In this document: piece after piece, positions 44,775 through 61,279 of the stretch | Numbering within the stretch: the stretch's first letter is position 1 | How the letters are laid out: every line of letters begins with the position of its first letter | Assembly (NCBI RefSeq): GCF_023148685.1 | Contig: NZ_JAHXNL010000007.1 | Location: 1-64,000 of the forward strand | Length of the DNA stretch: 64,000 nt | Direction of reading: 5' to 3' | Origin: Georgenia sp. EYE_87 | GTDB taxonomy: Bacteria; Actinomycetota; Actinomycetes; Actinomycetales; Actinomycetaceae | Position numbers and translations under genes: made by a program | The notes under the pieces: generated by a model | Seen by the model: only the letters and a program-made list of their open reading frames with translations | What the model was told of the DNA's origin: nothing | Databases searched by the model: none

Positions 44775-45695
44775 ATGAGCCCGGAGGATCCGGGAGTCAC
44801 GGTGGTCGTCGTCAGCCAGAACCGCCGCGACGAGCTGCTCGCGTCCCTCGCCCGCCACCGCGCGCCAGTCGTCTACGTCGACAACGCCTCCACCGACGGC
44901 AGTGCCGACGCGGTGAAGGAGCGGTTCCCGCACGTCGAGGCGGTCAGGCTGCGCCGCAACGCCGGCGCCTACGCTCGGACCATCGGCGCCCGGCGCGCGC
45001 GCACCCCCTTCGTCGCCTTCGCCGACGACGACTCCTGGTGGGCGCCCGGGGCGCTGGCGGCAGGGGCCGCGACCCTGGCCGACCACTCGCGCCTGGGTCT
45101 GCTGAACGCGCGGATCCTGGTCGGTCCCGAGGCCCGGGCCGACTCTGTCTGCGAGGTGATGGCGCGCTCGCCGCTGCCGCGTGAGCCTGGCGTCCCTGGC
45201 GTGCCGATCCTCGGCTTCGTTGCCTGCGCAGCCATGGTGCGCCGGGAGGCCTTCCTCGCCGTCGGCGGCTTCGACCCCGTGGTGCGCTTCCCCGGCGAGG
45301 AGGAGCGTCTGGCGATCGACCTCGCCGCCGGTGGGTGGGCGATGAGCTATGTCGACGACGTCGTCGTGCACCACCACCCCTCACCAGTGCGCGACTCCCC
45401 GGAGCGGCGCGTCCGCGCCATGACCCGGGCCGGCGTGCTCACGGGCGTCATGCGCCTGCCGTGGCCCGACGCCGTCGACCGGTTCCGGCGCGCCCTGCGC
45501 GCGGGTCCGGCGGAACGATCCGGTGCCCTGGACGCGCTGCGCGATGTCCCCGCCGCGCTGCGGACGAGGCGGCCGGCTCCGGCGGAGGTGCTGCGCCAGC
45601 TCGACCTGCTGTCCGCGACCACGGATCTGCCGGATCGCCGGCCGGCCGACGAGCGCGTCCCGGCGGGCGCGTCGAGCTACGGAGGTGATGCATGA
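44775..45695 (+). CDS. Family 2 glycosyltransferase
   Basis: A 306-residue GT-A enzyme: [34 protein letters not shown], the metal-binding [10 protein letters not shown] (about 85-94) and [33 protein letters not shown] follows, then a helical tail. It is paralogous to 34618-35517. Its last codons overlap the start of the NAD-dependent decarboxylase gene (ATGA), so the two are cotranslated and the sugar made next door may be its donor (inference). Confidence 0.88.
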
Positions 45696-46678
45696 GGACG
45701 GTGCGGAGCGCGTCCGGGCGCGACGGTGCGCCGGACCGGAGGGCCGTGGTCACGGGCGGCGCCGGGTTCCTCGGCAGCCACCTGTGCGAGACGCTGCTCG
45801 CCGACGGGTGGGCGGTGGTCTGCCTCGACAACTTCCTCACCGGCACGCCCGGCAACGTCGCACACCTCGTGGGCCGGCCGGGGTTCGAGCTGGTGCACTG
45901 CGACGTCACCGAGAACGCCCACGTCCGCGGCGACGTCGACCTGGTGCTGCACTTCGCCTCCCCGGCCTCTCCCGTGGACTACCTCGAGATGCCCATCGAG
46001 ACCCTCCGCGTGGGGTCCGTCGGCACCGAGCGCGCCCTGGGAGTCGCCCGCGACAAGGGCGCCCGGTTCGTGCTCGCCTCGACGTCGGAGGTCTATGGCG
46101 ACCCGCAGGTGCACCCCCAGCCTGAGGACTACTGGGGCCACGTCAACCCGATAGGCCCGCGCGGGGTCTACGACGAGGCCAAGCGGTACGCCGAGGCGCT
46201 GGTGACCGCCTACCGTTCGACGCACGGCGTGGACACCGGCATCGTGCGGATCTTCAACACGTACGGCCCGCGCATGCGGCCCGACGACGGACGGGCGATC
46301 CCGACGTTCATCCGCCAGGCGCTCGCGGACGAGCCGATCACCGTGGCAGGTGACGGCACCCAGACGCGGTCCGTGTGCTACGTCGACGACCTCGTCGCCG
46401 GCGTGCTCGCCATGACCGCCAGCGCGCACGCGGGGCCGGTGAACATCGGCAACCCGCACGAGCGGTCGGTGCTCCAGATCGCGGAGGACGTGCGCGCGGC
46501 CACCGGCTCCCGCTCGGAGATCATGTTCGTCGGCCGCCCGACCGACGACCCGGAGGTCCGCCGTCCGGACACCACGCTCGCCGCCGAGGTGCTCGGCTGG
46601 CACCCCACCGTGACGTGGGAGGAGGGGCTGGGCCGCACCGTGGCCTGGTTCCGGGAGGCGCTGAGCGAGAGCGCCTGA
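45692..46678 (+). CDS. NAD-dependent sugar-nucleotide SDR, UDP-glucuronate decarboxylase-like
   Basis: A 328-residue extended SDR. The NAD loop is [12 protein letters not shown] (19-30); LDNFLTG follows; the catalytic residues are in [10 protein letters not shown] (Ser/Thr) and YDEAKR (Tyr about 160, Lys about 164). The segment [18 protein letters not shown] is characteristic of UDP-xylose synthases (UXS), which convert UDP-glucuronate to UDP-xylose. A dTDP-glucose dehydratase-like role is less likely. It overlaps the upstream GT2 gene by 4 bp and is followed by 180 bp before the DUF222 gene. Confidence 0.87.
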
Positions 46679-46801
46679 CCGGGGTGATCGCGACGTCGAC
46701 GCAGACGTCGTGCGCGTGGGACCGAACCCCCGGCAAGGCGTCGGACGAGTTGTCCACAGCCTTGACCTGGGATGACGGCGGTCCATGGCCGAATGTCAGA
46801 C

Positions 46802-46842: not shown

Positions 46843-46859
46843 TCAGGGGGTGAGCACGG

Positions 46860-48779
46860 ATGGTCGCCATCGAGGCCGAGCGGCTGACGCGTGACGTCGC
46901 GCAGCCGACGACGGCGGCCCCGGCGCCCCTGCTCACCGGACTGCGGACGGCGGTCGAGGGGCTGCGAGCCGGCGCCCCGGCGACCGGCGCGCAGGGTTGG
47001 GGTCATGCCGAGCGGGAGGCTGCGATCACCGCCCTGGACGCCGTGATCCAGGACCTCACGCTCTACCGGGGCAAGGTGCTGCTCGCCCATCGCGAGGACG
47101 GCCGGTGGGGGACCGCCAGGGACCGCGACTACGCCGACTGGCGCGCCCGGACCACCGGGGCCGGGCGCGGGGCCGCGCTCGGTGAGCTTCAGGTCGCCGA
47201 GGGCCTGCAGGCGATGCCCGAGGTCGAGGCTGGCGTCGCCGCCGGAGAGCTGACTCTGGAGCACGCCAAGGCGCTCTCGCGGTTGCGGGCGGGCGCCTCC
47301 GAGGAGGTCCGGGCCGCCCTGGACTCAGGGATGGCCGCCGACCTGGCCGCGAAGGGCAAGGAACTGTCCGCCCCGGAGCTGGCGAAGGCAGCGCAGAAGG
47401 CGGCCGCCACGGTCGACTCCCGCGCCGCGCAAGAGTCCTTCGAGGCCTCCTGGCGCCGCCGAGCGGTCACCACCACCCGCAGCGCGGGCGGTCGCTCCGG
47501 CACGTGGGTGCTCGACGACGTCTCCGGAACCATTGTCGAGACCGCCCTGGACACGGTCGCCGGTGCTCCGGCCGCCGACGACCCACGCACCCGCGCCCAG
47601 CGTCTCGCAGACGCCCTCGTCACGATGGCCTCGCGCACCCTGCAGACCGGGTCCGACCTCAACGGCGCCCAGATCCGCCCCCACATCGCGCTGATCACCG
47701 ACGAGGAGACCTGGGCCGCCGCCCGTCGCCACCGTCAGGCGATCGAGGACGCCACCGGCGCCGCGGTCCAGGCAGCCCATGGCAGCGGCGCCGCGTTCGG
47801 CCTCGACGCCGACGGACGCCCCCGCACCACCACCGACGTCGAGGCCACCGACGGCGCCGGTCCCCGGGCGGGAGGCTGTGCGAGATCCGGGCGCGTCAGC
47901 CGCCCCACGTCCGGGTCGCCCGCCCTGCCGGCCGTCGCGCCGGCCGAGCTCGAGGACGGCACGCTTGTGCCGCTGGGTGAGCTGCTCCGGCTGATGTGCG
48001 ACTGCGAGATGACTCGGGTCGTCATGGACGCGGACTCCCAGGTCCTGGACGTCGGGCTCACCCAGCGCACCTACGCGAAGGAGATCCGCCGGGCGGTCAC
48101 CACCCGGGACCGGCACTGCCAGTGGCCCGGCTGCCAGATCCGTGCCTCCTGGTCCGAGGTCCACCACATCATCTGGTACTCCCGCGGCGGGCCGACATCG
48201 GTCGAGAACGGAATCACCGCCTGCAGCTACCACCACCACGTCATCCACCGCGACCACGTCCGCATCGTCCCCCTGGCCGACGGGTTCGCCTTCTACCGGG
48301 CCGAGGGAACTCTCATCGGCACCACCAGACGTGACGCCCGCCGTAGACGCCCGAACGTTCCGCCGGCCCCCGGCTCCACCGGAATCGCCGGAGGTGCAGC
48401 AGCGCGGTCAGGGCAGATCGATGACCGCACGCCGGCTCCCGACCCCGCCCACGCCCAGCTGCTCGCCGTCCACGAACAGATCACGTCCAGCAACGGCCGC
48501 CTATCGGCCGGCCTGCTTGACGCGCTCACCGGATCCACGGCACCGCCGTACGACCGTGTCACGCCCGACGGATCGACGGCGTCGCCGGGCGACCGTGGCA
48601 CGCCGCCGCCACAAGTCGGGCATCGGGGCACAGCCTTGCCGTCGAACGGACCGCCGGACCTGCACGCTCCGAGCGCCGACGGCCACGCCGCCGTCCGGAG
48701 CACAGCCGCACCGCCGGGTACTCGACCTACTCCGTGGGACGCGTCACTCCTCGACCAACCCGCCGAACCGCCGTTCTGA
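46860..48779 (+). CDS. DUF222 protein with C-terminal HNH endonuclease domain (13E12-like)
   Basis: A 639-residue protein. Residues ~40-380 are DUF222 (QDLTLYRGKVLLAHREDGRW, EVEAGVAAGELTLEHAKALSR, DARVSG-like DDPRTRAQRLADALVTMAS). The HNH domain is at about 415-470: CQWPGCQIRASWSEVHHIIWYSRGG, NGITACSYHHHVIH, with the His-His, Asn and distal His in place and paired Cys for zinc. A ~130-residue disordered Pro/Thr tail follows. Such genes occur in many copies in actinobacteria; the left edge of the window holds the tail of another. Cellular role is not established. An SOS-like box suggests DNA-damage control. It converges on the GT9 gene with a 14-bp gap. Confidence 0.88.
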   Translation: MVAIEAERLTRDVAQPTTAAPAPLLTGLRTAVEGLRAGAPATGAQGWGHAEREAAITALDAVIQDLTLYRGKVLLAHREDGRWGTARDRDYADWRARTTGAGRGAALGELQVAEGLQAMPEVEAGVAAGELTLEHAKALSRLRAGASEEVRAALDSGMAADLAAKGKELSAPELAKAAQKAAATVDSRAAQESFEASWRRRAVTTTRSAGGRSGTWVLDDVSGTIVETALDTVAGAPAADDPRTRAQRLADALVTMASRTLQTGSDLNGAQIRPHIALITDEETWAAARRHRQAIEDATGAAVQAAHGSGAAFGLDADGRPRTTTDVEATDGAGPRAGGCARSGRVSRPTSGSPALPAVAPAELEDGTLVPLGELLRLMCDCEMTRVVMDADSQVLDVGLTQRTYAKEIRRAVTTRDRHCQWPGCQIRASWSEVHHIIWYSRGGPTSVENGITACSYHHHVIHRDHVRIVPLADGFAFYRAEGTLIGTTRRDARRRRPNVPPAPGSTGIAGGAAARSGQIDDRTPAPDPAHAQLLAVHEQITSSNGRLSAGLLDALTGSTAPPYDRVTPDGSTASPGDRGTPPPQVGHRGTALPSNGPPDLHAPSADGHAAVRSTAAPPGTRPTPWDASLLDQPAEPPF

Positions 48780-48793
48780 TGTGGAACGGCTGC

Positions 48794-49804
48794 TCAGCTG
48801 GGCGCGGTGGTGCGGGCTGTCGTCGTCTCGAGCAGGTCACGCGCGGCCTCGACGACCTCATCGACCCCGATCTCGGCGAGCGCAGGATCGACCGTGACGG
48901 CGTGCGGATCGCAGGGGCCCGTCCCGTGCCACACGACGGTGTGCAGGTGATGATCGATCGCCGGCCCCCACCACGTCGGCGGGGTCGGGCCGAACAGCAC
49001 CACGGACGGCGTGCCGAGGGCTGTCGCGAGGTGGGCCACCCCGGTGTCCCCGCACACGAGCAGGCCGGCCGTGCCCACCCTCTCGGCGAGGGCGGGAAGG
49101 TCGAGACTGCCGGCCACGGAGTGCACTCCTGCGCCGGCGGCCCGGGCGATGCGCCGGCACACGTCGACCTCGTCACCGGATCCCGTGAGCACCACCGGGT
49201 GGCCCGTCGTGGCCAGCGCACGGGCGACGGCGGTCCAGCGCTCGGCCGGCCAGCGGCGAGCCAGCGATGCGGCCCCTGGGTGCACCACCACCGGCTCTGT
49301 CTCGACCACCCGGCCATCTCCGGCGGGCCCCCTTCCTCGCTCCGCGCCTGCCTGTGCCGGCAGGCGCAGATCCTCGGCCGAGCAGTCCCCGCCCGCAGAC
49401 CGCACGAGCCGGCACCAGCGGTCGACCTCGTGCTCGTCGCGTACCCAGGGCGGCCCCGGATGCCCCACCTCCGGGCACCCGAACGCGACGAGCCGCGACG
49501 GTCCCGTCGCGGAGAGCAGCTGATGGCTCTGCGGGCCGCGGCCGTGGAGGTTCACGGCCACGTGGCCGCCCGGGCGTTCCCAACGCAGCGGTGCGTCCAG
49601 ACCGGAGGTGGGCAGCACCTCGTCGACGACACCGAGCTCGCGCAGCCACCCGCCGGGCGCGGCAGGTCCCGCGAGCACCAGGCGTCGTCCGGGGAACGCC
49701 CGGCGGAGCCCGCGCAACGCCGGTACTGCGGTGAGGGTGTCGCCAAGCCCCAGCGCACGCAGCACGAGGACGTCACCGGCCGGGCCGTCGTCCCGCGGTG
49801 TCAT
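48794..49804 (-). CDS. Family 9 glycosyltransferase (heptosyltransferase-like), operon gene 9
   Basis: A 336-residue GT-B enzyme. VLVLRALGLGDTLTAVPALRG starts the acceptor domain, and the donor domain has VVVHPGAASLARRWPAERW and CGDTGVAHLATALGTPSVVLFGPTPP. These are signatures of GT9, whose known members move ADP-heptose onto LPS cores. Actinobacteria lack that acceptor, so the target is likely a cell-wall glycan, glycolipid or protein. ATG 49804 overlaps the upstream SDR stop (ATGA). It is the promoter-distal gene of the heptose operon. Confidence 0.88.
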   Translation of the reverse strand: MTPRDDGPAGDVLVLRALGLGDTLTAVPALRGLRRAFPGRRLVLAGPAAPGGWLRELGVVDEVLPTSGLDAPLRWERPGGHVAVNLHGRGPQSHQLLSATGPSRLVAFGCPEVGHPGPPWVRDEHEVDRWCRLVRSAGGDCSAEDLRLPAQAGAERGRGPAGDGRVVETEPVVVHPGAASLARRWPAERWTAVARALATTGHPVVLTGSGDEVDVCRRIARAAGAGVHSVAGSLDLPALAERVGTAGLLVCGDTGVAHLATALGTPSVVLFGPTPPTWWGPAIDHHLHTVVWHGTGPCDPHAVTVDPALAEIGVDEVVEAARDLLETTTARTTAPS

Positions 49805-50517
49805 GGCCAGGAGGTCTCCCCGGACGCCATGACGAGCATCTCGCGGATCTCGCTGCCCACCGGCTGCCGCAGCGCCGTCAGCACGGCCGAGGCGGTGTTG
49901 GCGGGGTCGTTGAGATCCTGGTCCGGCGCGGGGCGGAACCGCTCGTCGCGCCCGTCGAAGAAGGCGGTGCGCATCCCGCCGGGCACCAGGCACGTCACCC
50001 CGACCCGGCCGGCGTACTCCGCCGCGAGTGCCTGGGAGAACCCGCGGATCGCGAACTTCGAGGCCGAGTACGCCGTGGCGGCGTCCGCGCCACGAAGCCC
50101 GAGCGTGGAGGAGACCGTCACGACGGTGCCCCGCACCTTCTCCAGGTGGGGCAGGCAGGCGCGAATCACCGCGACCGTGCCGAAGAGGTTGACGCGGACC
50201 ACCTTCTCCCACGCCGCGGGCTCGATCTCCAGGATCGGGCCGCACGCGTCCGTCCCGGCCGCGGTGACCACCGCCGACGGCGGTCCCACCTCCTTCACGA
50301 GCCGGTCGACCGCCTCGGCGGCCGCGCCGGAGTCGGCGAGGTCGACCGTGACGTGCGGGACTTCGCCCGGAGGGGCGACCCGGTCGAGGACGGCCGCGGC
50401 GCCGCCCGCCTCCCGGACGGCGTCGACGACGGCGGCCCCGAGCCCGCCGGCGCCGCCGGTGACGAAGACGGTGCCCACCTCGCGGGGGGCGCGGGACTGC
50501 TGCGGGGCAGTGCTCAT
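49801..50517 (-). CDS. Short-chain dehydrogenase/reductase in the heptose operon, gene 8
   Basis: A 238-residue classical SDR: VFVTGGAGGLGAAVVDAVRE (cofactor loop), TAAGTDACGP, a catalytic Ser in VVTVSSTLGLRG, and YSASKFAIRGF (Tyr-x3-Lys). The cofactor-binding Asp after strand 2 (AVLDRVAPPG) suggests NAD(H). It is not HldD, which is an extended SDR that epimerises ADP-heptose; it may oxidise or reduce a heptose position instead (inference). Both ends overlap neighbouring operon genes by 4 bases. Confidence 0.88.
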   Translation of the reverse strand: MSTAPQQSRAPREVGTVFVTGGAGGLGAAVVDAVREAGGAAAVLDRVAPPGEVPHVTVDLADSGAAAEAVDRLVKEVGPPSAVVTAAGTDACGPILEIEPAAWEKVVRVNLFGTVAVIRACLPHLEKVRGTVVTVSSTLGLRGADAATAYSASKFAIRGFSQALAAEYAGRVGVTCLVPGGMRTAFFDGRDERFRPAPDQDLNDPANTASAVLTALRQPVGSEIREMLVMASGETSWP

Positions 50518-52214
50518 GCAGGACTCCTTAAGGGTGCGGACGCCCGGGCCAGGCCCGAGCGTTGGATGATCGAGGTGGTGGAGCGCCCGCCGAGGTACGG
50601 CAGCAGGACCACCCGCCCGCCGTGGAGTCGGACGACCTCCGACTCCGGCAGCGGCGCGCCGCCGTAGTCGCCGCCCTTGGCCCAGACGTCCGGGCGCAGC
50701 CGGTCGAGGACCGCACGGGGGTCGTCCTCGTCGAAGACGACGACGGCGTCCACACAGTCGAGCGCGGCCAGGACCCGGGCACGGTCGGGCGCGGGCACGA
50801 CCGGCCGGCCGGGGCCCTTGAGCCGGGTGACGGACGCGTCGGAGTTCATGACGACGACGAGGTGGTCACCGAGCCGGCGAGCCGCCTGCAGGGTGGCGAC
50901 GTGGCCGGCGTGGACGATGTCGAAGCAGCCGCCGGTGGCCACGAGCGTTCCGCCGTCGGCGCGGAGCCGGGCGGTGAGCCGGTCGAGCGCGCTGGGGTCC
51001 TCGCTCCACGGGCGGCCGGGCCGGGCCTGGCCGGCGCCGACCGCGCGGGCCGGGTCCGGGGCACGGTCGGCGTCCTGAGCACGATCGACCTCCTTGGCAC
51101 GGCGGGCGTCCGGGACACCGCCGGCCTCGTCGCGCCCGGCGTCGCCGCTACCCGTGCCCGCGGCAGTACGGGCGGTGCGGTGGCGGAACCCCTCGGCCCC
51201 GCCGGCCGCCACCCAGGCGGATGCGTCGGCGACGGCGAGCTCCACCGCCTCCGGCACCAACGCCCCGCCGGCCAGGGCGACGGTGCAGCTCGCGGCAAAC
51301 TGGTCGCCCGCGCCGCAGGGGTCACCGTCGGCCGCGACGGCGGGGAAGAACGCTGCCTCCGCGCCGGATCGCGCCAGGTAGGCACCTGCAGCGCCGGCGG
51401 TCACGCACACGGCGGCGGCCTGCCAGCGGCGGACCAGGTCGGCGGCGACCACGTCCGGCGGCGCGTCGGCCGCGACCGCGGACGCCGCCTCGAACCCACT
51501 CGCCCCTGCTGCCTCCGCGCCGGCCGCATCTGTCAGGGCTGCGGCTGTCGGGGCTGCCCCCGCCCCTGCTGCCCCCGCCCCTGTCGCACCCGCTCCGGCC
51601 GTACCGACCCCGGACGCAGCGGCCCGGGCCATGGCTGCGTGGGCCTCGGCAGCGTTCGGCGTCACGAGCGCCGCGCCGGGCACGGGCGGCCCGCCGCGCG
51701 GGTGCGGGTCCCAGACCAGCCGAGTGGACCGGGCGGCGTCCGCGAGCAGGGCGCGCAGCGCGGGGTCGCGGGTGACGCCCGCGCCGTAGTCGGAGACGAG
51801 CACGGCATCGGCGCCGGCGAGAACCGCCGAGACCTCCGCCGTCGCGACCGGGCCCGGGGTTCCCGGTCCGCCGTCGTCCACGCGCACCAGAGACTGGCCG
51901 CTGCTGCGCACGCGCGTCTTGGTGCGCGTCCCGCCCTCGTGCGGCAGCGCCACCAGGGTGAGTGCGCGGCGGAGCTGGGCGGCCAGGCGCTGGCCCGGTC
52001 CGTCGTCGGCCACGGGCGCGACCAGGGTCACCCGGGCGCCGCCCGCCGCGCACAGCAGCGCGGCCAGGCCCGCCCCGCCGGGGCTCTCCCGGGTACCGGT
52101 GACGTCCACGACCGGCACCGGGGCGTCCGGACTGAGCCGCTCGACGCGGCCGTCGACGTCGCGGTCCAGGACGACGTCGCCGACCACCACGACGTGCGGC
52201 ACCTGGCGGCTCAT
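50514..52214 (-). CDS. hldE: Bifunctional heptose-7-phosphate kinase / heptose-1-phosphate nucleotidyltransferase (HldE-like), operon gene 7
   Basis: A 566-residue fusion. The N-terminal PfkB-type kinase (about 1-345) has VVVGDVVLDRDVDGRVERLSP, SPGGAGLAALLCAAGG and the catalytic DPCGAGDQFAAS. The C-terminal cytidylyltransferase-fold domain (about 425-560) has GGCFDIVHAGHVATL (HxGH) and GGRSTTSIIQ. HldE makes D-glycero-beta-D-manno-heptose 1,7-bisphosphate and, after GmhB, ADP-heptose. Odd features: a ~60-residue Ala/Gly/Thr-rich insert in the kinase (near 205-255) and an Asp/Arg-rich linker (near 360-420). 4-base overlaps on both sides. Confidence 0.9.
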   Translation of the reverse strand: MSRQVPHVVVVGDVVLDRDVDGRVERLSPDAPVPVVDVTGTRESPGGAGLAALLCAAGGARVTLVAPVADDGPGQRLAAQLRRALTLVALPHEGGTRTKTRVRSSGQSLVRVDDGGPGTPGPVATAEVSAVLAGADAVLVSDYGAGVTRDPALRALLADAARSTRLVWDPHPRGGPPVPGAALVTPNAAEAHAAMARAAASGVGTAGAGATGAGAAGAGAAPTAAALTDAAGAEAAGASGFEAASAVAADAPPDVVAADLVRRWQAAAVCVTAGAAGAYLARSGAEAAFFPAVAADGDPCGAGDQFAASCTVALAGGALVPEAVELAVADASAWVAAGGAEGFRHRTARTAAGTGSGDAGRDEAGGVPDARRAKEVDRAQDADRAPDPARAVGAGQARPGRPWSEDPSALDRLTARLRADGGTLVATGGCFDIVHAGHVATLQAARRLGDHLVVVMNSDASVTRLKGPGRPVVPAPDRARVLAALDCVDAVVVFDEDDPRAVLDRLRPDVWAKGGDYGGAPLPESEVVRLHGGRVVLLPYLGGRSTTSIIQRSGLARASAPLRSPA

Positions 52215-52918
52215 GCGGTCCGCCGCAGGGGATCGGGCGCGGCGCGGACCGGCGAGGCGTGCGGCGAGGCGTGCCCCGCAGGGCCCAGGGCGAGCGGTCC
52301 GGGGCCCGGGTCGTTGGCGAGAGCTGCACCTGCGGAGAGGTTCGCGAGCTCGGCGTCCAGGACGGCGCACAGGGCATGGATCGCGACCAGGTGGACGGCC
52401 TGGACGGCGGCGGTGGAGGGCGCGTCGACGCACAGGGCGTCGTCGCTGCGTTCCTGGAGCGGGTTGGGTCCGCGCCCGGTCAACGCCCACACGTGCATGC
52501 CGATCTCGCGGCCGCGCTCCGCGGCGCGCACCACGTTCGGGCTCTTCCCCGAGGTCGAGAGGAGGACGAGCACGTCACCGGGCCGCCCGTGCCCCTCGAC
52601 CTGCCGGGCGAACATCTCGTCGATGCCGTAGTCGTTGACGATGGCCGTGACCGACGAGCTCTCCGCGCACAGCGAGATGGCGGAGAAGGGTCGGCGCTCC
52701 GCCAGGAAGCGGCCGACCAGCTCCGAGGTCAGGTGCTGGGCCTCCGCGGCGCTCCCGCCGTTCCCGGCGGCGAGGAGCCGGCCGCCGTCGAGCAGGCGCT
52801 CCGCCAGGGTGCGGCCCCACCGCGCGACGGTGCCGGACTCGCACCGCAGCGCGGCCAACGCGGCATGGAGCTCGCGCTCGTGGTCCTCGATCCAGTCGAG
52901 AGCGTTCAGGGCGTTCAT
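52211..52918 (-). CDS. gmhA: SIS-domain phosphoheptose isomerase (GmhA-like), operon gene 6
   Basis: A 235-residue isomerase. The SIS domain shows GGRLLAAGNGGSAAEAQHLTSELVGRF, SSSVTAIVNDYGIDEMFARQV and LVLLSTSGKSPNVVRA, which are GmhA signatures (sedoheptulose 7-phosphate to D-glycero-D-manno-heptose 7-phosphate). VHLVAIHALCAVLD near the end is also conserved. The last ~38 residues (GAALANDPGPG and onwards) are a Pro/Ala tail not seen in E. coli GmhA. ATG 52918 overlaps the GT4 stop; its own stop overlaps hldE. Confidence 0.9.
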   Translation of the reverse strand: MNALNALDWIEDHERELHAALAALRCESGTVARWGRTLAERLLDGGRLLAAGNGGSAAEAQHLTSELVGRFLAERRPFSAISLCAESSSVTAIVNDYGIDEMFARQVEGHGRPGDVLVLLSTSGKSPNVVRAAERGREIGMHVWALTGRGPNPLQERSDDALCVDAPSTAAVQAVHLVAIHALCAVLDAELANLSAGAALANDPGPGPLALGPAGHASPHASPVRAAPDPLRRTA

Positions 52919-54156
52919 GCCGTCGCCTCCTTCAGCGCGGGGTCGGTGGCGGTCTCGTAGGCGGCGAGGGTCCCGGCCGCCACCGTGGCCCAGGAGAACC
53001 GGTCCAGGGCGCGGCGCCGGGCGGCGACGCCGAAGCGGCGGCGCAGGTCCGGGTCGCCGAGCAGGGTCGTGAGCGCGCCGGCGAGGGCGGCGGCGTCGCG
53101 GGGCGGGACGAGGAGCCCGGTCTCGCCGTCGGACACGCTGTCGAGCAGCCCGCCGACGGCGGAGCCGACGAGCGGTCGCCCGCACGCGGCGGCCTCCAGC
53201 GGGACGATCCCGAACGGCTCGTACCAGGGCGTGGCGACGACGACGTCGGCGTCCCGGATCAGCGCCGGCATGTTGCCGCGGGCCACCGACCCGAGGAACC
53301 GCACCTGGTCAGTCACGCCCAGCCTCGCGGCCAGGGCGCGCAGGCGCCGGACCTCTGGGTCGCCGTCGACCTCGGCCGCCGAGGGGCCGCCCGCGACCAC
53401 CAGCTCCGCGTCGGGCAGCGCGGGGAGCGCCTCGACGACGGTCGCGATGCCCTTGCGGGGGACGAGCCGGCCCACCGACAGCAGCCGGTACGGCCGACGC
53501 CGGGGCCCCGCCGGGCCGGGGCGGTCACCCGCCCCGGCGGGGTCGCCGTCGCCGGGGGTGAAGTGCTCGACGTCCACCCCGCAGGGCACCACCCGCACGC
53601 TGCTCTCCGGGACGCCGAGGCGCCGCAGCTCGGTCACCTCGTCGCTGCAGGTGGCGACGACAAGGTCGACGGCCCGGCCGATGCGGCGCTCGTCGCGGAT
53701 CCGGCCGGGCGGGGAGGTGTCCGCGGCGCCCTGGTGACGCCGCTTGACCGTGCCCAGCGCGTGGTAGGTGTGCACCGTCGGCACCGGGACGGTGCGGGCG
53801 GCCTCGAGGACCGCCAGGCCGGACATCCAGAAGTGGGAGTGGACCACGTCGGGCCGGCCGCGGAGCGTCCAGGTGCGCGCGAGCCACCGGCCGAAGGCGG
53901 GCATGAACGGGGCGAGCTCGTCCTTCGGCAGGGGGACGGGTGGCCCGGCGGGGACGTGCACGACGGTGACCCGCTCGTGCATCGGCACCCGCTCCGGCAG
54001 GTCGGCGCGGTCGCGGCGGGTGTAAACCTCGACCTCGTGCCCGTCCTCGGCGAGGGCGGTGGCGAGCGCGGCGACGTGCACGTTCTGCCCGCCGGCGTCC
54101 ACCCCGCCGAGCACGGCGAGCGGGCTCGCGTGCTCGGAGACCATGGCGATCCTCAT
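52915..54156 (-). CDS. Family 4 glycosyltransferase, operon gene 5
   Basis: A 413-residue GT-B retaining enzyme. RIAMVSEHASPLAVLGGVDAGGQNVHVAALA is the typical N-terminus of actinobacterial GT4 proteins; HSHFWMSGLAVLEAA, LLSVGRLVPRKGIATVVEAL and the E-x7-E motif in WYEPFGIVPLEAAACGRP are present. The donor is unknown; the operon suggests it adds a sugar in the same glycan as the heptosyltransferases. ATGA overlaps on both sides. Confidence 0.9.
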   Translation of the reverse strand: MRIAMVSEHASPLAVLGGVDAGGQNVHVAALATALAEDGHEVEVYTRRDRADLPERVPMHERVTVVHVPAGPPVPLPKDELAPFMPAFGRWLARTWTLRGRPDVVHSHFWMSGLAVLEAARTVPVPTVHTYHALGTVKRRHQGAADTSPPGRIRDERRIGRAVDLVVATCSDEVTELRRLGVPESSVRVVPCGVDVEHFTPGDGDPAGAGDRPGPAGPRRRPYRLLSVGRLVPRKGIATVVEALPALPDAELVVAGGPSAAEVDGDPEVRRLRALAARLGVTDQVRFLGSVARGNMPALIRDADVVVATPWYEPFGIVPLEAAACGRPLVGSAVGGLLDSVSDGETGLLVPPRDAAALAGALTTLLGDPDLRRRFGVAARRRALDRFSWATVAAGTLAAYETATDPALKEATA

Positions 54157-55112
54157 CGATCTACCTCCTTCAGCAGCTGCTGCCAGTCGGCGAGGAACCG
54201 GTCCAGGCCGAAGCGGTCCAGTGCGTGCGCGCGTGCGGCCTGCCCCCGCGCACGGGCCTCGTCGGGGTCCTGGAGCCACCGCCTGGCGGTGGCGACCAGG
54301 ACGTCGGGGTCGGAGCTGACCACCCCGGCGTCGTCGGGGACCGCCTCGGGGGCGGCGGTGGTGGCGAGCGCGAGCACCGGCATCCCGAGGGTCATGGCCT
54401 CGAGCAGGGACAGCCCGAGCGACGTCCACCGGTAGGGGTGGAGGTATGCGCGGTGCCGCGCGAGCAGGTCGTGCATCCGGTCCTGCGGGACGTCCTCGTG
54501 CAGGTGCCCGGCCAGGTGCGGGGCGCGCTCCTGAAGCGCCGCCATGCCCATGCCGTGCACGGCGACCGGCAGCTCGTCCGCGATCCGCAGCAGCACGTCC
54601 GTGCCGGCCACCCGCCAGCGGCGCACCGGCTCGTTGACCACCACCCCGAGCCGCTCCTCGGTGCCGGTGTACCGGTAGCCCGGGTCGACCAGGCCGTGGT
54701 CGATCACGGTGGTGGGCGCTGCGCCGCAGTCCCACATGAGGGCGTTGAAGGCGGTGACGTGCACGACCGGGATGTCGGAGCGGTCCGCCAGCGGGTGCCG
54801 GGTGGCCGGTGCCGGCCCGGCGGGGGTGTTGTGCTCGACGTAGACCGCCGGGACGTCGGCGCCGGCCCGCAGCCCGGTCCACTCGCGGAGCAGGTCGATC
54901 TCGTGGGGGCGCTGGAGGACGACGACGTCGCAGCCCTCCTCCCGCAGCTGGGCCGGGGTGAGCTCGCGCGCGGCGGCGGGCCAGGTCCAGGTGCGCGCCC
55001 GGCCGAGCCCGTCCGGCCCGCGGTCGGGCAGGACCGGGATCAGGTACTCGTCCGGGCCGTGCACGAACGGGGTGAGCCAGGAGCCGTGGACGTGCCAGAT
55101 GAGGATCCTCAT
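54153..55112 (-). CDS. Glycosyltransferase (GT-B fold), operon gene 4
   Basis: A 319-residue GT-B-like protein. RILIWHVHGSWLTPFVHGPD starts it, then DVVVLQRPHEIDLLREWTGL, VYVEHNTPAGPAPAT, and the donor-site block HRAYLHPYRWTSLGLSLLEAMTLGMPVLA with the conserved Glu. It belongs near GT4/GT1-type families; a precise family is not certain. Cotranslated with its neighbours through 4-base overlaps. Confidence 0.84.
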   Translation of the reverse strand: MRILIWHVHGSWLTPFVHGPDEYLIPVLPDRGPDGLGRARTWTWPAAARELTPAQLREEGCDVVVLQRPHEIDLLREWTGLRAGADVPAVYVEHNTPAGPAPATRHPLADRSDIPVVHVTAFNALMWDCGAAPTTVIDHGLVDPGYRYTGTEERLGVVVNEPVRRWRVAGTDVLLRIADELPVAVHGMGMAALQERAPHLAGHLHEDVPQDRMHDLLARHRAYLHPYRWTSLGLSLLEAMTLGMPVLALATTAAPEAVPDDAGVVSSDPDVLVATARRWLQDPDEARARGQAARAHALDRFGLDRFLADWQQLLKEVDR

Positions 55113-56209
55113 GCGTGCACCTCCGCCGGGGCGAGCGTGCGCACGGCGCGGACGACGTCGGCCGGCGGCACCCCCGTCAGGCACGGGTGGCCCGGGACGG
55201 GGCACTCGCGGGCGCGGGTGTCGCGGCACGGCGCGTGCTGGTCGCCGAGCACCACGGCCGGGACGCCGTACGGCGCCCACCGTTCGGCCGGGACCACGGG
55301 GGAGAACAGGGAGACCACCGAGGTGCCGACCGCCGCGGCGAGGTGGGCGGGACCGGTGTTGCCGACTACGACGCACGCGGCGCCGTCGAGCACCGCGGCG
55401 AGCTCGGCGAGGTCGGTGCGTCCGGCCAGGTCGACGACGCGGCCCGGCCCGTCGTCGGCCGGGCCCACCGATTCGTGGGCCGGGCTGGGCATGATGCCGG
55501 CGGGGCCGGCCACGTCGTCGGTCGGGCCCGAGACGACGGACGCGAGCTCGCGCTCGCCCGGCCCGCCGGTGACCACGACCGGCCACCCGTCCTCCCGCAG
55601 TGCCGCGACGACGGCGCGCGCGTGCCCGGCGGTCATGGCGCGGGCGGGCACCGACGCGCCGGGGTGGACGACGACGTAGGGCCGGTCCGGCACGAGCGCG
55701 GGGGCCGGCGGGAGGGGCCGGCGCAGGGCGAGTCGTCCGTCGTCGCCGGCCGGCAGGTCCGCGCCGGTGGCGCGGACGAGGTCCAGGGCCGCCTCCACCT
55801 CGTGCAGCCCGTCGGGCCGCCGGTGGCGTACGTCGAGCAACGAGCCGGGGTAGTCGACGCTGGTCGCGGCGACGTAGGGAATGCCGGCCATCCGGGCCAG
55901 CAGCGCCATCGGCAGCGGGCTCTGGTGGAAGGAGGTGAAAATGACGCACCGGTCGTAGCAGCGCTGCGCGAGCAGGGCGACCAACCTCTGGAGCTGGGCA
56001 GGGTCGGCCGGCGGTGGGACGTAGCCGGACCACGGGACCTCGGCCACGAGCACGCCGTCGACACCAGGGAGCAGGCGCGCCGCGCCCTGACCCGACGGGC
56101 TGACCAGCAGGTCGAGGTGGTCGGCGGAGGTGGCCAGCGCGCGCAGCGCCGGTCCGGCCAGCAGGACGTCGCCGTCGTTGTCGAGCCGGACGCCCAGCAC
56201 GCGGCTCAT
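55109..56209 (-). CDS. Family 9 glycosyltransferase (heptosyltransferase-like), operon gene 3
   Basis: A 366-residue GT9 enzyme: VLGVRLDNDGDVLLAGPALRAL (with DNDGD in place of the usual GD), FTSFHQSPLPMALLARMAGIP, YVVVHPGASVPARAM and VVGNTGPAHLAAAVGTSVVSLFSPVVP. Cys-rich C-terminal loop (APCRDTRARECPVPGHPCL) is common in GT9 of actinobacteria. It is the second heptosyltransferase-type enzyme of the operon, so two heptoses or two linkages may be made. 4-base overlaps on both sides. Confidence 0.88.
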   Translation of the reverse strand: MSRVLGVRLDNDGDVLLAGPALRALATSADHLDLLVSPSGQGAARLLPGVDGVLVAEVPWSGYVPPPADPAQLQRLVALLAQRCYDRCVIFTSFHQSPLPMALLARMAGIPYVAATSVDYPGSLLDVRHRRPDGLHEVEAALDLVRATGADLPAGDDGRLALRRPLPPAPALVPDRPYVVVHPGASVPARAMTAGHARAVVAALREDGWPVVVTGGPGERELASVVSGPTDDVAGPAGIMPSPAHESVGPADDGPGRVVDLAGRTDLAELAAVLDGAACVVVGNTGPAHLAAAVGTSVVSLFSPVVPAERWAPYGVPAVVLGDQHAPCRDTRARECPVPGHPCLTGVPPADVVRAVRTLAPAEVHA

Positions 56210-57990
56210 CCCACGACCGCCAGGGGCCGGACCGGCCGGGCACCGTCGTCCGCGCGGGGTACGCCGTCGTCGGGCGCCCCGGGCGCTGCAGCGAGCAGCA
56301 GCTCCACCGCGGCGGCGAGGTCCGGAGCCACCACGTCGGCGGCGGCGATCTCCTCGGGCCGGGTGCGCGACGTCGGGACCAGTACCGCGCGGGCGCCGGC
56401 CACGCGGGCGGCGTCGACGTCGGCGCCGATGTCGCCCACCACGGCGCACTCGTACGGCGCCACGCCCAGCGCGGCGGCCGCACGCAGCACCATGAGCGGT
56501 CCGGGCTTGCGGCAGGCGCAGCCGTCCTCGGGACCGTGGGGGCAGTGCTGCACGGTGTCCAGCCCGCCGACCTCGGCACGCACCCGCTCGTTGACCGCGG
56601 CGACGTCGTCCTCGGTGAGCAGCCCGCGCGCGACCCCGGACTGGTTGGTCACCAGCCCGGTGCGCAGACCCGCGGCGCGGACGCGGCGCAGCGCCTCGAG
56701 GGCGCCGTCGACGAGCCGCACGCGGTCGGGGTCGCCGTTGTAGGGGACGTCGTGGACGAGGGTGTCGTCGCGGTCGAGAAGGACGGCGCGCAGCGGCGGC
56801 GGCCAGGCGGCGACGCCGGCCCGGTAGTCCAGCGCGCCGCGACCCCGGTGCCACACCGCCAGCCAGGGGATCACCACGCTGGTGGCCGCCATGCGGCCCC
56901 ACTCGGACAGCCACCCGTCCTGGCCAGGGTGCGGCCCCGGCGCGATGCGCCGTCGGGCGAAGTCGGCGGTCAGGGCCGCCCAGGCGGCGGCCGCGATGAC
57001 AGCGGATGCTGTCGAGCGCAGCGCCGGCGGGTGCGGTCGCGCAGGCGGGTGGTGCGGCGCGGGCGGGCGGTGCAGGGCAGATAAGTGGTGCTGGGCAGAT
57101 GAAGTCGTCCCGAGCGCACTTGTCGGGCCCAGGATCACTTTCTCGCCCTTGGTGTCCAGGTAGGCCCCTGCAGCGAGCGCAGCGACACCGGCCGCGACCG
57201 TGGCGACGTGCCAGCGGAAGCGCCCGCGTCCCGTCTCGGCCTCCCGCCGCCAGCCTGGCCCGTGGAGGGCGTGCATGAGCGCGTCGGAGCGTGCGCCCGC
57301 CTGCATGCGCAGGCTCACCGACCAGTCGGCCGGGCGGGCGGGGTGCACGATCGAGCGGGCGCCGCGCTCGAGGCGCCAGCCGGCCCGCCGCACCCGCAGG
57401 GCGAGATCGGCGTCCTCCCGGTAGGCGCGCGGGAACCGCTCGTCGAAGCCGGCCACGGCGGCCAGGGCGGCGCGCCGGTAGGCCATGTCCGCCGTCGCCC
57501 ACCGGGCGGTCTCGAGGCCGGCGGTGTTGCGCTCCCAGTCGGTGGGCCGCCGGTGCGCCGGCAGCGGCACGTGGATGCGGCCCTGGTTCCCGCCGACGTC
57601 GTCGCCGGCGGCGGCCAGGTCGGCGCCGAGGCGGCGGGACCAGTCGCGGGGGAGGAGGACATCGTCGTCGAGGAAGGCCACCCAATCGGCGGACACCGAG
57701 CGCCAGCCGGCGTTGCGGGCCGCGGCGGGGCCCCGGCCGCCGGAGCGGACGACCCGCACCGGCCACGGCAGCTGAGGCACGTCGAGCGCCGGCGGGACGC
57801 CGGTGGCGGCCGCCGGGCCGCCCGGGGGCACCGGGGCGGCGTCGAGGGGCCGGTCGTCGACGAGCACCACCTCGGCGGGCGCCACGTGCCCCGGGTCGCG
57901 GGCCTGGGCGGCGAGGGAGTCCAGCAGCACCCGCAGCGACGGCCGCCCGATCGTGGGGACCACGACGGCGTAGCCCGGCGCGGCGGTCAC
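56206..57990 (-). CDS. Fusion of a GT2 glycosyltransferase and a GmhB-like heptose-bisphosphate phosphatase, operon gene 2
   Basis: A 594-residue fusion. The N-terminal GT2 domain (about 1-270): YAVVVPTIGRPSLRVLLDSL, VSADWVAFLDDDVLLP (metal site), GFDERFPRAYREDADLALRV. A middle part holds two or three hydrophobic helices (about 275-295, 335-350, 375-390). The C-terminal HAD-IIIA domain (about 405-575): LLDRDDTLV (catalytic Asp pair), LVTNQSG, the GmhB zinc loop CPHGPEDGCACRKP, and VGDIGADVDAARVAG. The HAD part should remove the 7-phosphate between HldE's two reactions. GTG 57990 overlaps the carbamoyltransferase stop (GTGA). Confidence 0.88.
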   Translation of the reverse strand: MTAAPGYAVVVPTIGRPSLRVLLDSLAAQARDPGHVAPAEVVLVDDRPLDAAPVPPGGPAAATGVPPALDVPQLPWPVRVVRSGGRGPAAARNAGWRSVSADWVAFLDDDVLLPRDWSRRLGADLAAAGDDVGGNQGRIHVPLPAHRRPTDWERNTAGLETARWATADMAYRRAALAAVAGFDERFPRAYREDADLALRVRRAGWRLERGARSIVHPARPADWSVSLRMQAGARSDALMHALHGPGWRREAETGRGRFRWHVATVAAGVAALAAGAYLDTKGEKVILGPTSALGTTSSAQHHLSALHRPPAPHHPPARPHPPALRSTASAVIAAAAWAALTADFARRRIAPGPHPGQDGWLSEWGRMAATSVVIPWLAVWHRGRGALDYRAGVAAWPPPLRAVLLDRDDTLVHDVPYNGDPDRVRLVDGALEALRRVRAAGLRTGLVTNQSGVARGLLTEDDVAAVNERVRAEVGGLDTVQHCPHGPEDGCACRKPGPLMVLRAAAALGVAPYECAVVGDIGADVDAARVAGARAVLVPTSRTRPEEIAAADVVAPDLAAAVELLLAAAPGAPDDGVPRADDGARPVRPLAVVG

Positions 57991-59681
57991 AGCGCGACCC
58001 CGGCCGCCTCGTGGACGCGCTCCGCACCGGCGAACATCATCGACCGGCGCACCAGGTGCGGTCCCACGACCAGGACGTCCACGGGGGCGGAGCCGAAGAG
58101 CTCGAGGGCGTCGCGCGGGTCGTCGACCATGGGCCGCCCGGCCGTGTTGAGCGAGGTGTTGACCACCACGGGCAGGCCGGTGCGGCGGTGGAAGGCCTGG
58201 ATCATCGCCCCCAGCCGCGGCTGGGTGGCCGGGTCGACGGTCTGGATGCGGGCGGTGCCGTCCACGTGCACGACGGCGGGGATCCGGTCCCGCCAGACCG
58301 GGGCGACGTCGTGGACGAAGAGCATGTACGGGCTCGGCACCGGCCCGCCCGAGAAGATCTCCGCGGCGTGGTCGGCGAGCACCATGGGTGCGACCGGCCG
58401 GAACTGCTCGCGTCCCTTGACGTCGTTGAGCCGCTCCAGGTTCGCCGCCACGCCGGGGTTGGCGAGGAGCGAGCGCTGACCGAGCGCCCGGGGCCCGAAC
58501 TCGCTGCGGCCGTCGAACCAGGCGACGACGCCGTTGTGGGCCAGCACCTCGGCGACCTGCTCGTCGAGGTCGTCCGGGGTCGTGAACGGCACGGCCGCAC
58601 CGCGCAGCCAGGAGGCGAGCTCGTCGTCGGACCACTGGCGGCCCAGCGCTGCCGACGGCATCGGTGCGGTGGTCTCACCCCGGTCCGCGGCCGCCTGGAG
58701 CGCCGCGCCGAGGGCGGTTCCGGCGTCGCCCGCCGCGGGCTGGACCCAGACCTCCTCGAACGGGGTCTCGCGCCAGATGCGGGAGTTCGCCACGCAGTTC
58801 AGGGCGGTGCCGCCGGCCATGGTGAGGACGCGGTCGCCGGTGCGCTCGTGCAGCCACCGGGCGAGATCGACGAGGACCTCCTCGAGCCGGGCCTGGACCG
58901 AGCAGGCGAGGTCGGCGTGGGCGCCCCGCCAGGCCTCCTCGTCGAGACGGGCGTCGCGGTCGCGTGCGGGCGACCACCGCGACCAGTCCGGGACGGGCGC
59001 CTCGAAGCCGCCGTCGTCCGTGGCCCGGATCGTCTCGCGCAGCTCCTCCAGGTGGCGCGGCTCGCCGTAGGACGCCAGGGCCATGACCTTGTACTCGTCG
59101 GAGGAGCGCAGGAAGCCGAGGTGCTCGGTGAGGGACTCGTAGAGCAGGCCGAGCGAGTGCGGGAGGTCCTGGGTTGCGAGGACCTCGAGGGAGCCGCCGG
59201 TGTAGCGGCCCGAGAGGTGGGAGGCGTGCTCGCCACGCCCGTCGAGGACCAGGACGCTGCTGCGCTCGTGGGGTGAGGCCAGCGCGCCCGACGCCGCGTG
59301 CGCGACGTGGTGAGGGACGAAGCGGACCTTCTCCGGGTCGAGGCCGGGCAGCGCCGCGGCGAGGAACTGCGGGGCCCGCCGCGCGTAGGTCTGGCGCAGG
59401 TCGTCCCACGGGTCGACCAGGCCCAGCTGGTCGACGGGCCGGGCGAGCGCCGGGTCGTAGGAGTAGGCGACGACGTCGAGGTCCGCCGGGGTCAGCCCCG
59501 CCTCCTTGAGGCACCACCGCATCGACAGCTCCGGCAGCTCCCACGCCGCGAAGGGCACCGGGCGCTTGCCGTGCTTGCGCCGGGAGAACCGCTCCTCCTC
59601 GGCGGCGGCGACGACCCGACCGTCGATCACCAGCGCGGCGGAGGGATCGTGGAACAGGGCGTTGACACCGAGGATGCGCAT
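57987..59681 (-). CDS. Carbamoyltransferase (NodU/CmcH family), operon gene 1
   Basis: A 564-residue O-carbamoyltransferase. The Kae1-like N-terminal domain has RILGVNALFHDPSAALVIDG, VPHHVAHAASGALASP (metal-binding His) and DEYKVMALASYGEP; LTMAGGTALNCVANSRI follows; the C-terminal domain has DGRSEFGPRALGQRSLLANP. The family transfers a carbamoyl group from carbamoyl phosphate to a sugar or antibiotic hydroxyl. As first gene of the heptose operon it may carbamoylate the heptose-containing product. I chose ATG 59681; the open frame to 59855 runs into the divergent regulatory region. Confidence 0.92.
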   Translation of the reverse strand: MRILGVNALFHDPSAALVIDGRVVAAAEEERFSRRKHGKRPVPFAAWELPELSMRWCLKEAGLTPADLDVVAYSYDPALARPVDQLGLVDPWDDLRQTYARRAPQFLAAALPGLDPEKVRFVPHHVAHAASGALASPHERSSVLVLDGRGEHASHLSGRYTGGSLEVLATQDLPHSLGLLYESLTEHLGFLRSSDEYKVMALASYGEPRHLEELRETIRATDDGGFEAPVPDWSRWSPARDRDARLDEEAWRGAHADLACSVQARLEEVLVDLARWLHERTGDRVLTMAGGTALNCVANSRIWRETPFEEVWVQPAAGDAGTALGAALQAAADRGETTAPMPSAALGRQWSDDELASWLRGAAVPFTTPDDLDEQVAEVLAHNGVVAWFDGRSEFGPRALGQRSLLANPGVAANLERLNDVKGREQFRPVAPMVLADHAAEIFSGGPVPSPYMLFVHDVAPVWRDRIPAVVHVDGTARIQTVDPATQPRLGAMIQAFHRRTGLPVVVNTSLNTAGRPMVDDPRDALELFGSAPVDVLVVGPHLVRRSMMFAGAERVHEAAGVAL

Positions 59682-59806: not shown

Positions 59807-61279
59807 GTGAGCAGCTCGCAGACCGTTCAGACACCCGCTCTCTTCGCCGCCGCACGGCGCCTGGGCGCCCATCTCGTCGGCGGCGACGAGGTCGCGGCCG
59901 CGGGGGAGCGCGAGCTCGACCGTGCCGACCCGGTCACCGGCGAGCCGGCCTGGGTGGTGGTGCCCGCCACCGACGCGGAGGTGGCCTCCGCCGTCGACGC
60001 CGCGGCCGCTGCCGCCAGGGCGTGGCGGCGAACCCCACCGGCCGAGCGGGCGGCCGCCCTGCGCGAGGCGGCGGGCGCCGTGCGGGCCGCCGCGGACGAC
60101 CTCGGCGCGCTGCTCACCGCGACCACGGGCCGGCTGATCGGGCAGGCGCGCGAGTCCGCCGTCGTCGCCGCCGACCTCCTCGAGGAGGCTGCCACCACCG
60201 GGCTGGGCGCCACCGGGCGCACGCTGGCGGGCGCGCCCGCCGCCCTGGACGTGGTGCGTCGGGAGCCGCACGGCGTGGTCGCCGTCATCACGCCGTGGAA
60301 CGACCCGTTCCCGACGGCGGCGGGCCTGCTGGCCGCCGCGCTGGTCACCGGCAACACCGTGGTGCACAAGCCGTCCGAGCGCAGCGCCGCCCCCGGGTGG
60401 GAGCTGGCGCGGCTGATCGCCGGGGCGCTCCCGGCGGGGGTGCTCAACGTCGTCAACGGCGACGCCGCCACGGGCACCGCGCTGGTCGCGGACCCGCGGG
60501 TCGCCCTGGTCGCCCAGGTCGGCTCGACGGCGGCGGGCCGGGAGATCGCGGCGCGGGTCGGCGCCCGCGGTGGGCAGGTGCTGCTCGAGAACGGCGGCAA
60601 GGACCCGATCGTCGTCGATGCCGGCGTCGACCCGGCGTGGGCGGCCGGCCAGATCGCGCTCGGCGCGTTCACCAACACCGGGCAGATCTGCACCTCGGTC
60701 GAGCGGGTGTACCTGCACGAGGGCGTGGCCGACGACGTGCTCGGCGAGCTGGTGCGGATCGCGGAGGACATGCGGGTGGGCGACCCCGCCGACCGGGCCA
60801 CGGAGCTGGGCCCGCTCGTCGACGAGGCGCAGCTGGCGGTCGTGGAGGAGCACGTCTCGGCGGCGGTGAACGCGGGCGCGCGGGTCCTGGCCGGCGGTTC
60901 CCGGCCCGACGGCGCGGGCTGCTTCTACCCCGCCACGGTGCTGGACGGGTGCACCGCCGACTTGGCCGTCATGACCGAGGAGACCTTCGGGCCGGTCGCC
61001 GCGGTGACGCGTGTGGCCGACTTCGACGAGGCGCTGCGGCTCGCGAACGCCGGCCGGTACGGCCTGGCCGCCACCGTGCTCACCGCCCACCTCGCGCACG
61101 CGCTGCGCGCGGCGGAGGAGCTGGAGGTCGGCACCGTGAAGGTCAACGCCGTGTTCGGCGGGGCGCCCGGCGGCTCGGCGGACCCGCGACGGGACAGCGG
61201 CGCCGGCGCGGGCTACGGGCCCGACCTGCTCGCGGCGATGACCGTGCTCAAGACCGTCCACCTGGAGGCGACGCCCTGA
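59807..61279 (+). CDS. Aldehyde dehydrogenase
   Basis: A 490-residue NAD(P)-dependent enzyme. VVAVITPWNDPFPTAAGLLAAAL binds the oxyanion/cofactor area, VGSTAAGREIA is the nucleotide loop, the general base Glu261 is in LLENGGKDP, and the catalytic Cys295 is in NTGQICTSVERVYL. EETFGPVAAV follows. Substrate is unknown; it is related to benzaldehyde/succinate-semialdehyde-type dehydrogenases. I chose GTG 59807 (GGGAGGA upstream), just after the 18-bp palindrome; the frame to 59684 continues over that palindrome and is unlikely coding. Confidence 0.9.
   Translation: MSSSQTVQTPALFAAARRLGAHLVGGDEVAAAGERELDRADPVTGEPAWVVVPATDAEVASAVDAAAAAARAWRRTPPAERAAALREAAGAVRAAADDLGALLTATTGRLIGQARESAVVAADLLEEAATTGLGATGRTLAGAPAALDVVRREPHGVVAVITPWNDPFPTAAGLLAAALVTGNTVVHKPSERSAAPGWELARLIAGALPAGVLNVVNGDAATGTALVADPRVALVAQVGSTAAGREIAARVGARGGQVLLENGGKDPIVVDAGVDPAWAAGQIALGAFTNTGQICTSVERVYLHEGVADDVLGELVRIAEDMRVGDPADRATELGPLVDEAQLAVVEEHVSAAVNAGARVLAGGSRPDGAGCFYPATVLDGCTADLAVMTEETFGPVAAVTRVADFDEALRLANAGRYGLAATVLTAHLAHALRAAEELEVGTVKVNAVFGGAPGGSADPRRDSGAGAGYGPDLLAAMTVLKTVHLEATP

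Follow-up and report, generated by a model that had tools for sequence, protein, structure and literature searches.

The stretch analysed here (the window) comprises 64,000 nucleotides of Georgenia sp. EYE_87 (contig NZ_JAHXNL010000007.1, positions 1 to 64,000) and carries a block of nine genes, running from 59681 to 48794 on the minus strand, in which heptose-activating enzymes are combined with glycosyltransferases (GTs). According to Pfam and NCBIfam their order is carbamoyltransferase, GT2-HAD, GT9, GT4, GT4, GmhA, HldE, a short-chain dehydrogenase/reductase (SDR) and GT9 (Table 1). All eight junctions are overlaps of 4 bases, GTGA at 57987-57990 and ATGA at the remaining seven. The initial annotation had described nine genes on one strand with such overlaps and had given each a domain identity, and both descriptions hold. 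The interval that it delimited does contain the nine genes but not the full extent of the cluster, two further genes of which lie outside it at 44775-46678 on the plus strand. With this gene content, the operon very probably activates heptose and builds it into a surface sugar chain in a bacterium free of lipopolysaccharide (LPS).

The arrangement recurs in many actinobacteria. In a draw of 296 Actinomycetota genomes, 37 had an HldE match at E 1e-30, our own included, and 40 loci around such matches were sampled from 35 of the 36 other positive genomes (G173 was left out). The first of the two GT4 genes served as operon marker; an alignment of 14 orthologs, searched against a collection of named genomes, gave at least 574 confirmed relatives, of which the best 80 were used. 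The closest among these 80 were from Georgenia (78–80%), and the others included Cellulomonas, Kineococcus, Kocuria, Dietzia, Nakamurella, Micromonospora, Saccharopolyspora, Streptomyces, Kribbella, Geodermatophilaceae, Streptosporangiaceae and an Acidimicrobiales metagenome-assembled genome. All nine genes were consecutive in 8 of the 40 sampled and 22 of the 80 named loci, and the eight genes without the SDR kept their order in 12 sampled loci, 37 named loci and all three loci carrying the cwg promoter of Streptomyces (L169-L171, see below), with loci cut by contig ends scored as misses. The synteny across actinobacteria that had been proposed as a check is thus conserved, and the recurrence of the gene order in both sets indicates that the arrangement is not due to chance.

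We called a locus operon-like when it held at least five of the nine genes at 42% identity or more, which was the case for 102 of 123 loci; the other 21 were excluded from the residue counts given below. Relatives with at least 45% identity (best piece) were present among these 102 for the carbamoyltransferase in 78, GT2-HAD in 95, the first GT9 in 99, each GT4 in 101, GmhA in 98, HldE in 73, the second GT9 in 85, the UDP-glucuronate decarboxylase (UDP-xylose synthase, UXS) of the plus strand in 63 and its linked GT2 in 23. The marker GT4 was found in 30 of the 296 genomes (20 of them outside the class of the window); the count for the first GT9 at E 1e-20 was likewise 30 of 296. HldE and marker occurred together in 28 genomes, the marker alone in 2, HldE alone in 9 and neither in 257 (Fisher p 4e-29, not corrected for the relatedness of the genomes). 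The HldE, HldD, marker and first GT9 surveys are taken to cover the same 296 genomes.

For each of the four heptose activities, solved heptose enzymes were among the best sequence matches in the PDB. GmhA matched 1tk9 and others. The HAD domain matched 3l8h first, which has a generic name, and then 4pnh and 2gmw, both D,D-heptose 1,7-bisphosphate phosphatases. HldE matched the heptose 7-phosphate kinase 4e84, and its top match, 5x9q, named only as a putative cytidylyltransferase, covers the other domain. Within its genome, HldE alone matched TIGR02199, a nucleotidyltransferase family. Conservation among the operon-like loci (3 to 24 of the 102 could not be aligned at given sites) was nearly complete: GmhA residues H62, E66 and Q173 were kept in 99/99 loci and H181 in 98/98, the histidines and the lysine of the HldE nucleotidyltransferase in 94/94, the GAGD aspartate of the HldE kinase in 78/78, the HAD aspartates in 87/88 (one gap) and 88/88, and the HAD zinc ligands in 86–88 of 88. 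The roles of the residues counted in GmhA, HldE, HAD and GT9 are those that we presume from such enzymes. The predicted gene set for NDP-D-glycero-D-manno-heptose (NDP, nucleoside diphosphate) is complete, with GmhA, HldE kinase, GmhB-type phosphatase and HldE nucleotidyltransferase, and the four-step route to NDP-heptose of the initial annotation is in this way supported at sequence level, catalytic residues included.

Table 1. Genes of the heptose cluster, its neighbours and a gene near the operon in related loci.
Feature	Position	Strand	Basis or remark
O-carbamoyltransferase, NodU/TobZ family, first gene, cwgB by position	57987..59681	-	PF02543/PF16861; ATG start; 71% identity to L169 gene 2
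GT2 fused to GmhB-type HAD phosphatase	56206..57990	-	HAD at about residues 400-570 (56281-56793)
GT9, heptosyltransferase family, cwgE by position	55109..56209	-	PF01075
GT4-like glycosyltransferase, operon marker, cwgF by position	54153..55112	-	Pfam and relatives
GT4, MshA-like, cwgG by position	52915..54156	-	267 bits, below the MshA cut-off of 462.5
GmhA, sedoheptulose 7-phosphate isomerase, cwgH	52211..52918	-	NCBIfam, PDB matches, conserved residues
HldE, heptose 7-phosphate kinase and heptose 1-phosphate nucleotidyltransferase, cwgI	50514..52214	-	NCBIfam, PDB, conserved residues
Classical SDR oxidoreductase, optional member	49801..50517	-	Pfam; YxxxK present
Second GT9, cwgJ by position	48794..49804	-	PF01075; PDB matches WaaC and WaaF, both weak
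UXS, cwgA homolog, convergent with the block	45692..46678	+	PDB UXS1; 65% identity to L169 gene 1
GT2, homologous to the two terminal cwg genes	44775..45695	+	45% and 42% identity to the last two L169 genes
DUF222-HNH gene between the cluster halves, not thought part of the pathway	46860..48779	+	Family match
Aldehyde dehydrogenase, divergent neighbour	59807..61279	+	PF00171; start inferred
Pyruvyl transferase relative in cwg-promoter loci	L169:1882-2676, L170:2766-3494, L171:15978-16853		Weak family match

The nucleotide carried by the heptose may vary. Tang et al. 2024 linked the use of CTP and UTP to an arginine in the fifth place of the STT motif (STTR5; PMC11461863). The HldE of the window has this arginine, as do 67 of 94 loci, the others having H (13), Y (10), Q (2), W (1) or L (1), while the first letter of the motif in the window is Y instead of F/L. 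Given this arginine, the donor may be ADP-, CDP- or UDP-heptose. In the kinase domain of the same protein an Ala/Gly-rich stretch at about residues 195–255, judged by eye, interrupts the alignment to 4e84.

As the initial annotation had supposed, both the epimerase HldD and LPS appear to be missing. The best HldD match in the genome scored 102 bits against a cut-off of 274.6, and none of the 296 Actinomycetota genomes had a match at E 1e-50 (at most seven candidates were scored per genome listed; of 14 known genomes used as control, 2 had a match above the cut-off). LpxC gave no match in the genome, with a control positive in 4 of 14. Since no HldD was detected, the D-glycero form of the heptose is expected, unless an unrelated epimerase exists, and the absence of HldD from all 296 genomes and of LpxC from this one makes lipid A-Kdo an unlikely acceptor. 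Together these gaps lend support to a D-glycero-heptose that would be used outside LPS.

The carbamoyltransferase had 7xb6, TobZ and GdmN among its PDB matches, and the two histidines of its HHxxH motif were conserved in 73 and 77 of 78 aligned loci. The N-terminal aspartates of GT9 were kept in 99/99 and 86/86. The SDR, judging by its distribution, is an optional member of the operon: the operon-type gene (at least 45% identity) occurred in 59 of the 102 operon-like loci and any SDR relative in 66, and even a weak search turned up no convincing SDR in L169-L171, the loci with the cwg promoter. Its classical SDR type and this distribution led us to reject the SDR as a general replacement for HldD.

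The plus-strand gene at 45692-46678 is, by a wide margin in the PDB sequence search, a UDP-glucuronate decarboxylase (352–356 bits to UXS1 structures, 139 bits to the next class). Relatives of UDP-glucose dehydrogenase lie close by in 7 of the 80 named and 4 of the 40 sampled loci, and in the genome of the window the UDP-glucose/GDP-mannose dehydrogenase family has three matches elsewhere; together with the decarboxylase this points to UDP-xylose. On sequence similarity the decarboxylase gene and the adjacent GT2 belong to the cluster: both are matched in L169, which makes the first a cwgA homolog and the second a homolog of the GT2 genes at the end of cwg.

This brings us to cwg itself, a 12-gene operon of S. 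coelicolor (SCO6179-6190; PMC5839063, PMC6767563) that is sigma-E-dependent, induced by vancomycin and one of the first two sigma-E targets known in Streptomyces (PMC6767563). Its promoter is printed with 147 bp to the start codon (PMC6767563), and SCO6186 (cwgH, gene 8) is labelled phosphoheptose isomerase (PMC5839063). Among 392 genomes of the genus of G246, taken as Streptomyces, the printed promoter occurred once exactly, three times with one mismatch and twice with two. At the exact site (L169, genome G533) the end of the promoter and the GTG with which UXS starts are separated by 147 bp, the printed distance, and the promoter is followed by twelve genes in the order UXS, carbamoyltransferase, GT2, HAD, GT9, GT4, GT4, GmhA, HldE, GT9, GT2, GT2. 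GmhA takes the eighth place and HldE the ninth, like cwgH and cwgI of the published table. Beyond the values in Table 1, identities to the window are 55% for GT2, 59% for HAD, 55% for the first GT9, 58% for each GT4, 62% for GmhA, 53–64% for HldE (in three pieces) and 49% for the second GT9. From this correspondence, the locus in the window and the sigma-E-dependent cwg operon of S. coelicolor are orthologous.

The operon type is therefore already known, and the chemistry that it implies, with heptose, probably xylose and probably a carbamoyl group, appears not to have been stated in the accessible literature. In the portions of the publications available, the cwg product is described no further than as a cell wall glycan, predicted or putative, and a heptose chemistry is not found stated, although Hong 2002, Tang 2018 and Tang 2022 may differ. 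The word heptose has no occurrence in the main text of PMC6767563 as accessible, nor is it mentioned in the literature on whole-cell sugars among the matches listed.

We consider it likely that loci of the cwg type feed NDP-heptose and UDP-xylose into a carbamoyl-capped oligosaccharide of the cell envelope. We infer the individual enzymatic steps, the order of the sugars and the envelope location as follows. The HldE kinase would produce heptose 1,7-bisphosphate, the HAD domain would take off the 7-phosphate, and the HldE nucleotidyltransferase would yield NDP-heptose (ADP-, possibly CDP- or UDP-heptose), to be transferred by the two GT9 enzymes. The linked decarboxylase would provide UDP-xylose for one of the GT2 or GT4 enzymes, and the carbamoyltransferase would cap one hydroxyl. 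The most likely product is an envelope oligosaccharide with heptose, probably xylose and probably carbamoyl; the Streptomyces genes respond to envelope stress.

A number of observations weigh against this interpretation. The NCBIfam scores of the heptose enzymes lie below the curated cut-offs (HldE 263 bits vs 521, its nucleotidyltransferase domain 175 vs 181.5 and kinase domain 136.5 vs 345, GmhA 157 vs 209, GmhB 117.5 vs 178). The SIS and PfkB families are functionally broad, and such scores would also fit GmhA and HldE homologs that act on some other sugar phosphate and hence make no heptose. This we regard as very unlikely, because an isomerase, a kinase, a zinc-loop HAD and a nucleotidyltransferase co-occur as a set with two GT9 genes and the catalytic residues are kept in nearly all aligned loci.

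The nine-gene block further contains no transporter, polymerase, ligase, flippase or exporter domain (Pfam), and among the few recurrent neighbours annotated in relatives there is no transporter, polymerase or ligase. When hydropathy was scanned crudely, 6 of the 11 proteins showed a 19-residue stretch with a mean above 1.6, none exceeding 1.9 (top value 1.86, in GmhA); these stretches resemble parts of soluble domains and are read as no membrane helix. A block lacking an exporter could instead belong to a soluble or secreted small molecule containing heptose, as in septacidin and hygromycin B, for which sedoheptulose 7-phosphate is reportedly a heptose precursor, and several of the solved O-carbamoyltransferases are indeed antibiotic enzymes (TobZ, novobiocin, GdmN). 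We find this improbable given the gene order conserved across many genera, the five glycosyltransferase domains of the block plus one linked GT2, the sigma-E envelope-stress control in S. coelicolor, and the lack in the block of polyketide synthase, nonribosomal peptide synthetase or nucleoside scaffold enzymes (Pfam, NCBIfam; the neighbours in relatives are only partly annotated).

The missing polymerase, flippase and ligase also leave some room for an NDP-heptose destined for a glycolipid, a lipoglycan or protein heptosylation, not for a wall-linked glycan. MshA and PimA are among the structure matches of one GT4, and protein heptosylation from NDP-heptose is already known. With Pfam and NCBIfam we recognised neither a dedicated protein heptosyltransferase nor a lipid-anchor synthase in the locus, and the number of glycosyltransferases suggests an oligosaccharide. 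We hold this alternative to be possible but the less probable choice; it overlaps with the favoured envelope oligosaccharide, from which it differs in the acceptor, and the likelihoods of the readings are not meant to add up to one.

The remaining counterpoints to the envelope oligosaccharide concern distribution, correspondence to cwg and regulation. The operon is patchy: of the 8 g8 genomes listed, G246 alone matched HldE at E 1e-30. A carbamoyltransferase was not detected in 24 of the 102 operon-like loci, some of them truncated at contig ends, and the first HHxxH histidine is another residue in 5 of 78, so that carbamoylation may not be a feature of every locus; 43 of the 102 lack the operon SDR. 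The label of cwgD is dehydratase (PMC5839063), as opposed to the HAD counted at that position, and in L169-L171 there are 447–753 bp between HldE and GT9 that have no assignment. A sigma-E matrix built from 46 printed promoters, with the cwg promoter (18.6 bits) outside the training set, gave at best 2.3 bits upstream of the window operon (mononucleotide-shuffle p 0.73) and nothing convincing upstream of the carbamoyltransferase, UXS or GT2 genes of the window, and upstream of UXS in 13 named loci of Streptomyces type the cwg promoter string was matched in 18 of 29 bases at best. The stress regulation may thus not extend to the window. Sigma-E control of the window operon was rejected on these results, and we do not claim conserved regulation.

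Upstream of the carbamoyltransferase or UXS in relatives, 10 regions scored above 9 bits (shuffle p 0.00–0.10). In five Microbispora and Planobispora loci (L128, L138, L147, L154, L106) a sigma-E-like site lies 255–300 bp upstream of the carbamoyltransferase (10–13 bits, shuffle p 0.00–0.10), which hints, at the level of promoter sequence, at stress control beyond Streptomyces.

The DUF222-HNH gene separates the two halves of the cluster. The distance between the matched GT9 and UXS ends is 276 bp in one Georgenia relative (L083) and 108 bp in another (L086), from which we suppose that the gene may have inserted here; elsewhere among the relatives this distance varies, from an overlap up to several kilobases. 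The gene is one of a dispersed family with 20 DUF222 matches in the genome, some of them pieces of one gene. PADLOC gave no match for this protein or the nine of the block, and a reading as a defence system was discarded; one scan of viral_contigs found no viral relatives of GT2-HAD. Relatives of the aldehyde dehydrogenase occur in 18 of the 80 named loci (in Georgenia, Cellulomonas, Actinotalea, Pedococcus, Knoellia, Micromonospora and, at 35% identity, Blastococcus) and in 7 of the 40 sampled ones. Relatives of a protein that weakly matches the polysaccharide pyruvyl transferase family (31 bits vs a cut-off of 25.3, over the last 38 positions only) lie near the operon in 9 of the 80 named loci, in 2 of the 40 sampled ones and in all three with the cwg promoter, which suggests a pyruvylated variant of the glycan.

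If the proposed route is true, it would give LPS-type heptose enzymes a use in Gram-positive bacteria, and naming D,D-heptose, xylose and carbamoyl as likely building blocks makes the question of the cwg product testable. A salt-induced "ADP-heptose:LPS heptosyltransferase" has been described in Frankia (PMC5563000), not tied to the operon of the window; in the accessible part of another paper GmhA is named for comparison only (PMC12680351); and NDP-heptoses in general activate the mammalian receptor ALPK1 as agonists (PMC11461863).

Compared with cwg of S. coelicolor, the window has UXS, carbamoyltransferase, GT2, HAD, GT9, GT4, GT4, GmhA, HldE, GT9 and GT2 all linked within 44775-59681, and shares with L169 the order of the core from carbamoyltransferase to GT9. 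It differs in that GT2 and HAD, separate open reading frames in L169, are fused, an SDR is added and one linked GT2 stands for two. Whereas cwg is a single 12-gene unit starting from UXS, here UXS and GT2 are convergent with the block, 46860-48779 lies in between, and a sigma-E-like promoter was not detected in the window. With these two traits of cwg lacking, the 12-gene unit and the promoter, we regard the locus as an orthologous variant and not as the cwg operon proper. The ADP-heptose route to the LPS inner core of Gram-negative bacteria shares GmhA, HldE, GmhB and GT9 homologs with the window, but differs from it by the lack of a detected LpxC in this genome and of HldD in the Actinomycetota surveyed. 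In that setting, the LPS core of Pseudomonas aeruginosa carries a carbamoylated heptose (WapO), which would offer an earlier example of a heptose bearing this group. Actinobacteria are also reported to have tridomain NDP-heptose synthetases (Tang 2022) and the heptoses of septacidin and hygromycin B (Tang 2018); these share with the window the activation of heptose in actinobacteria, whereas in the window one gene encodes the isomerase and another the kinase/nucleotidyltransferase, both within a glycosyltransferase operon.

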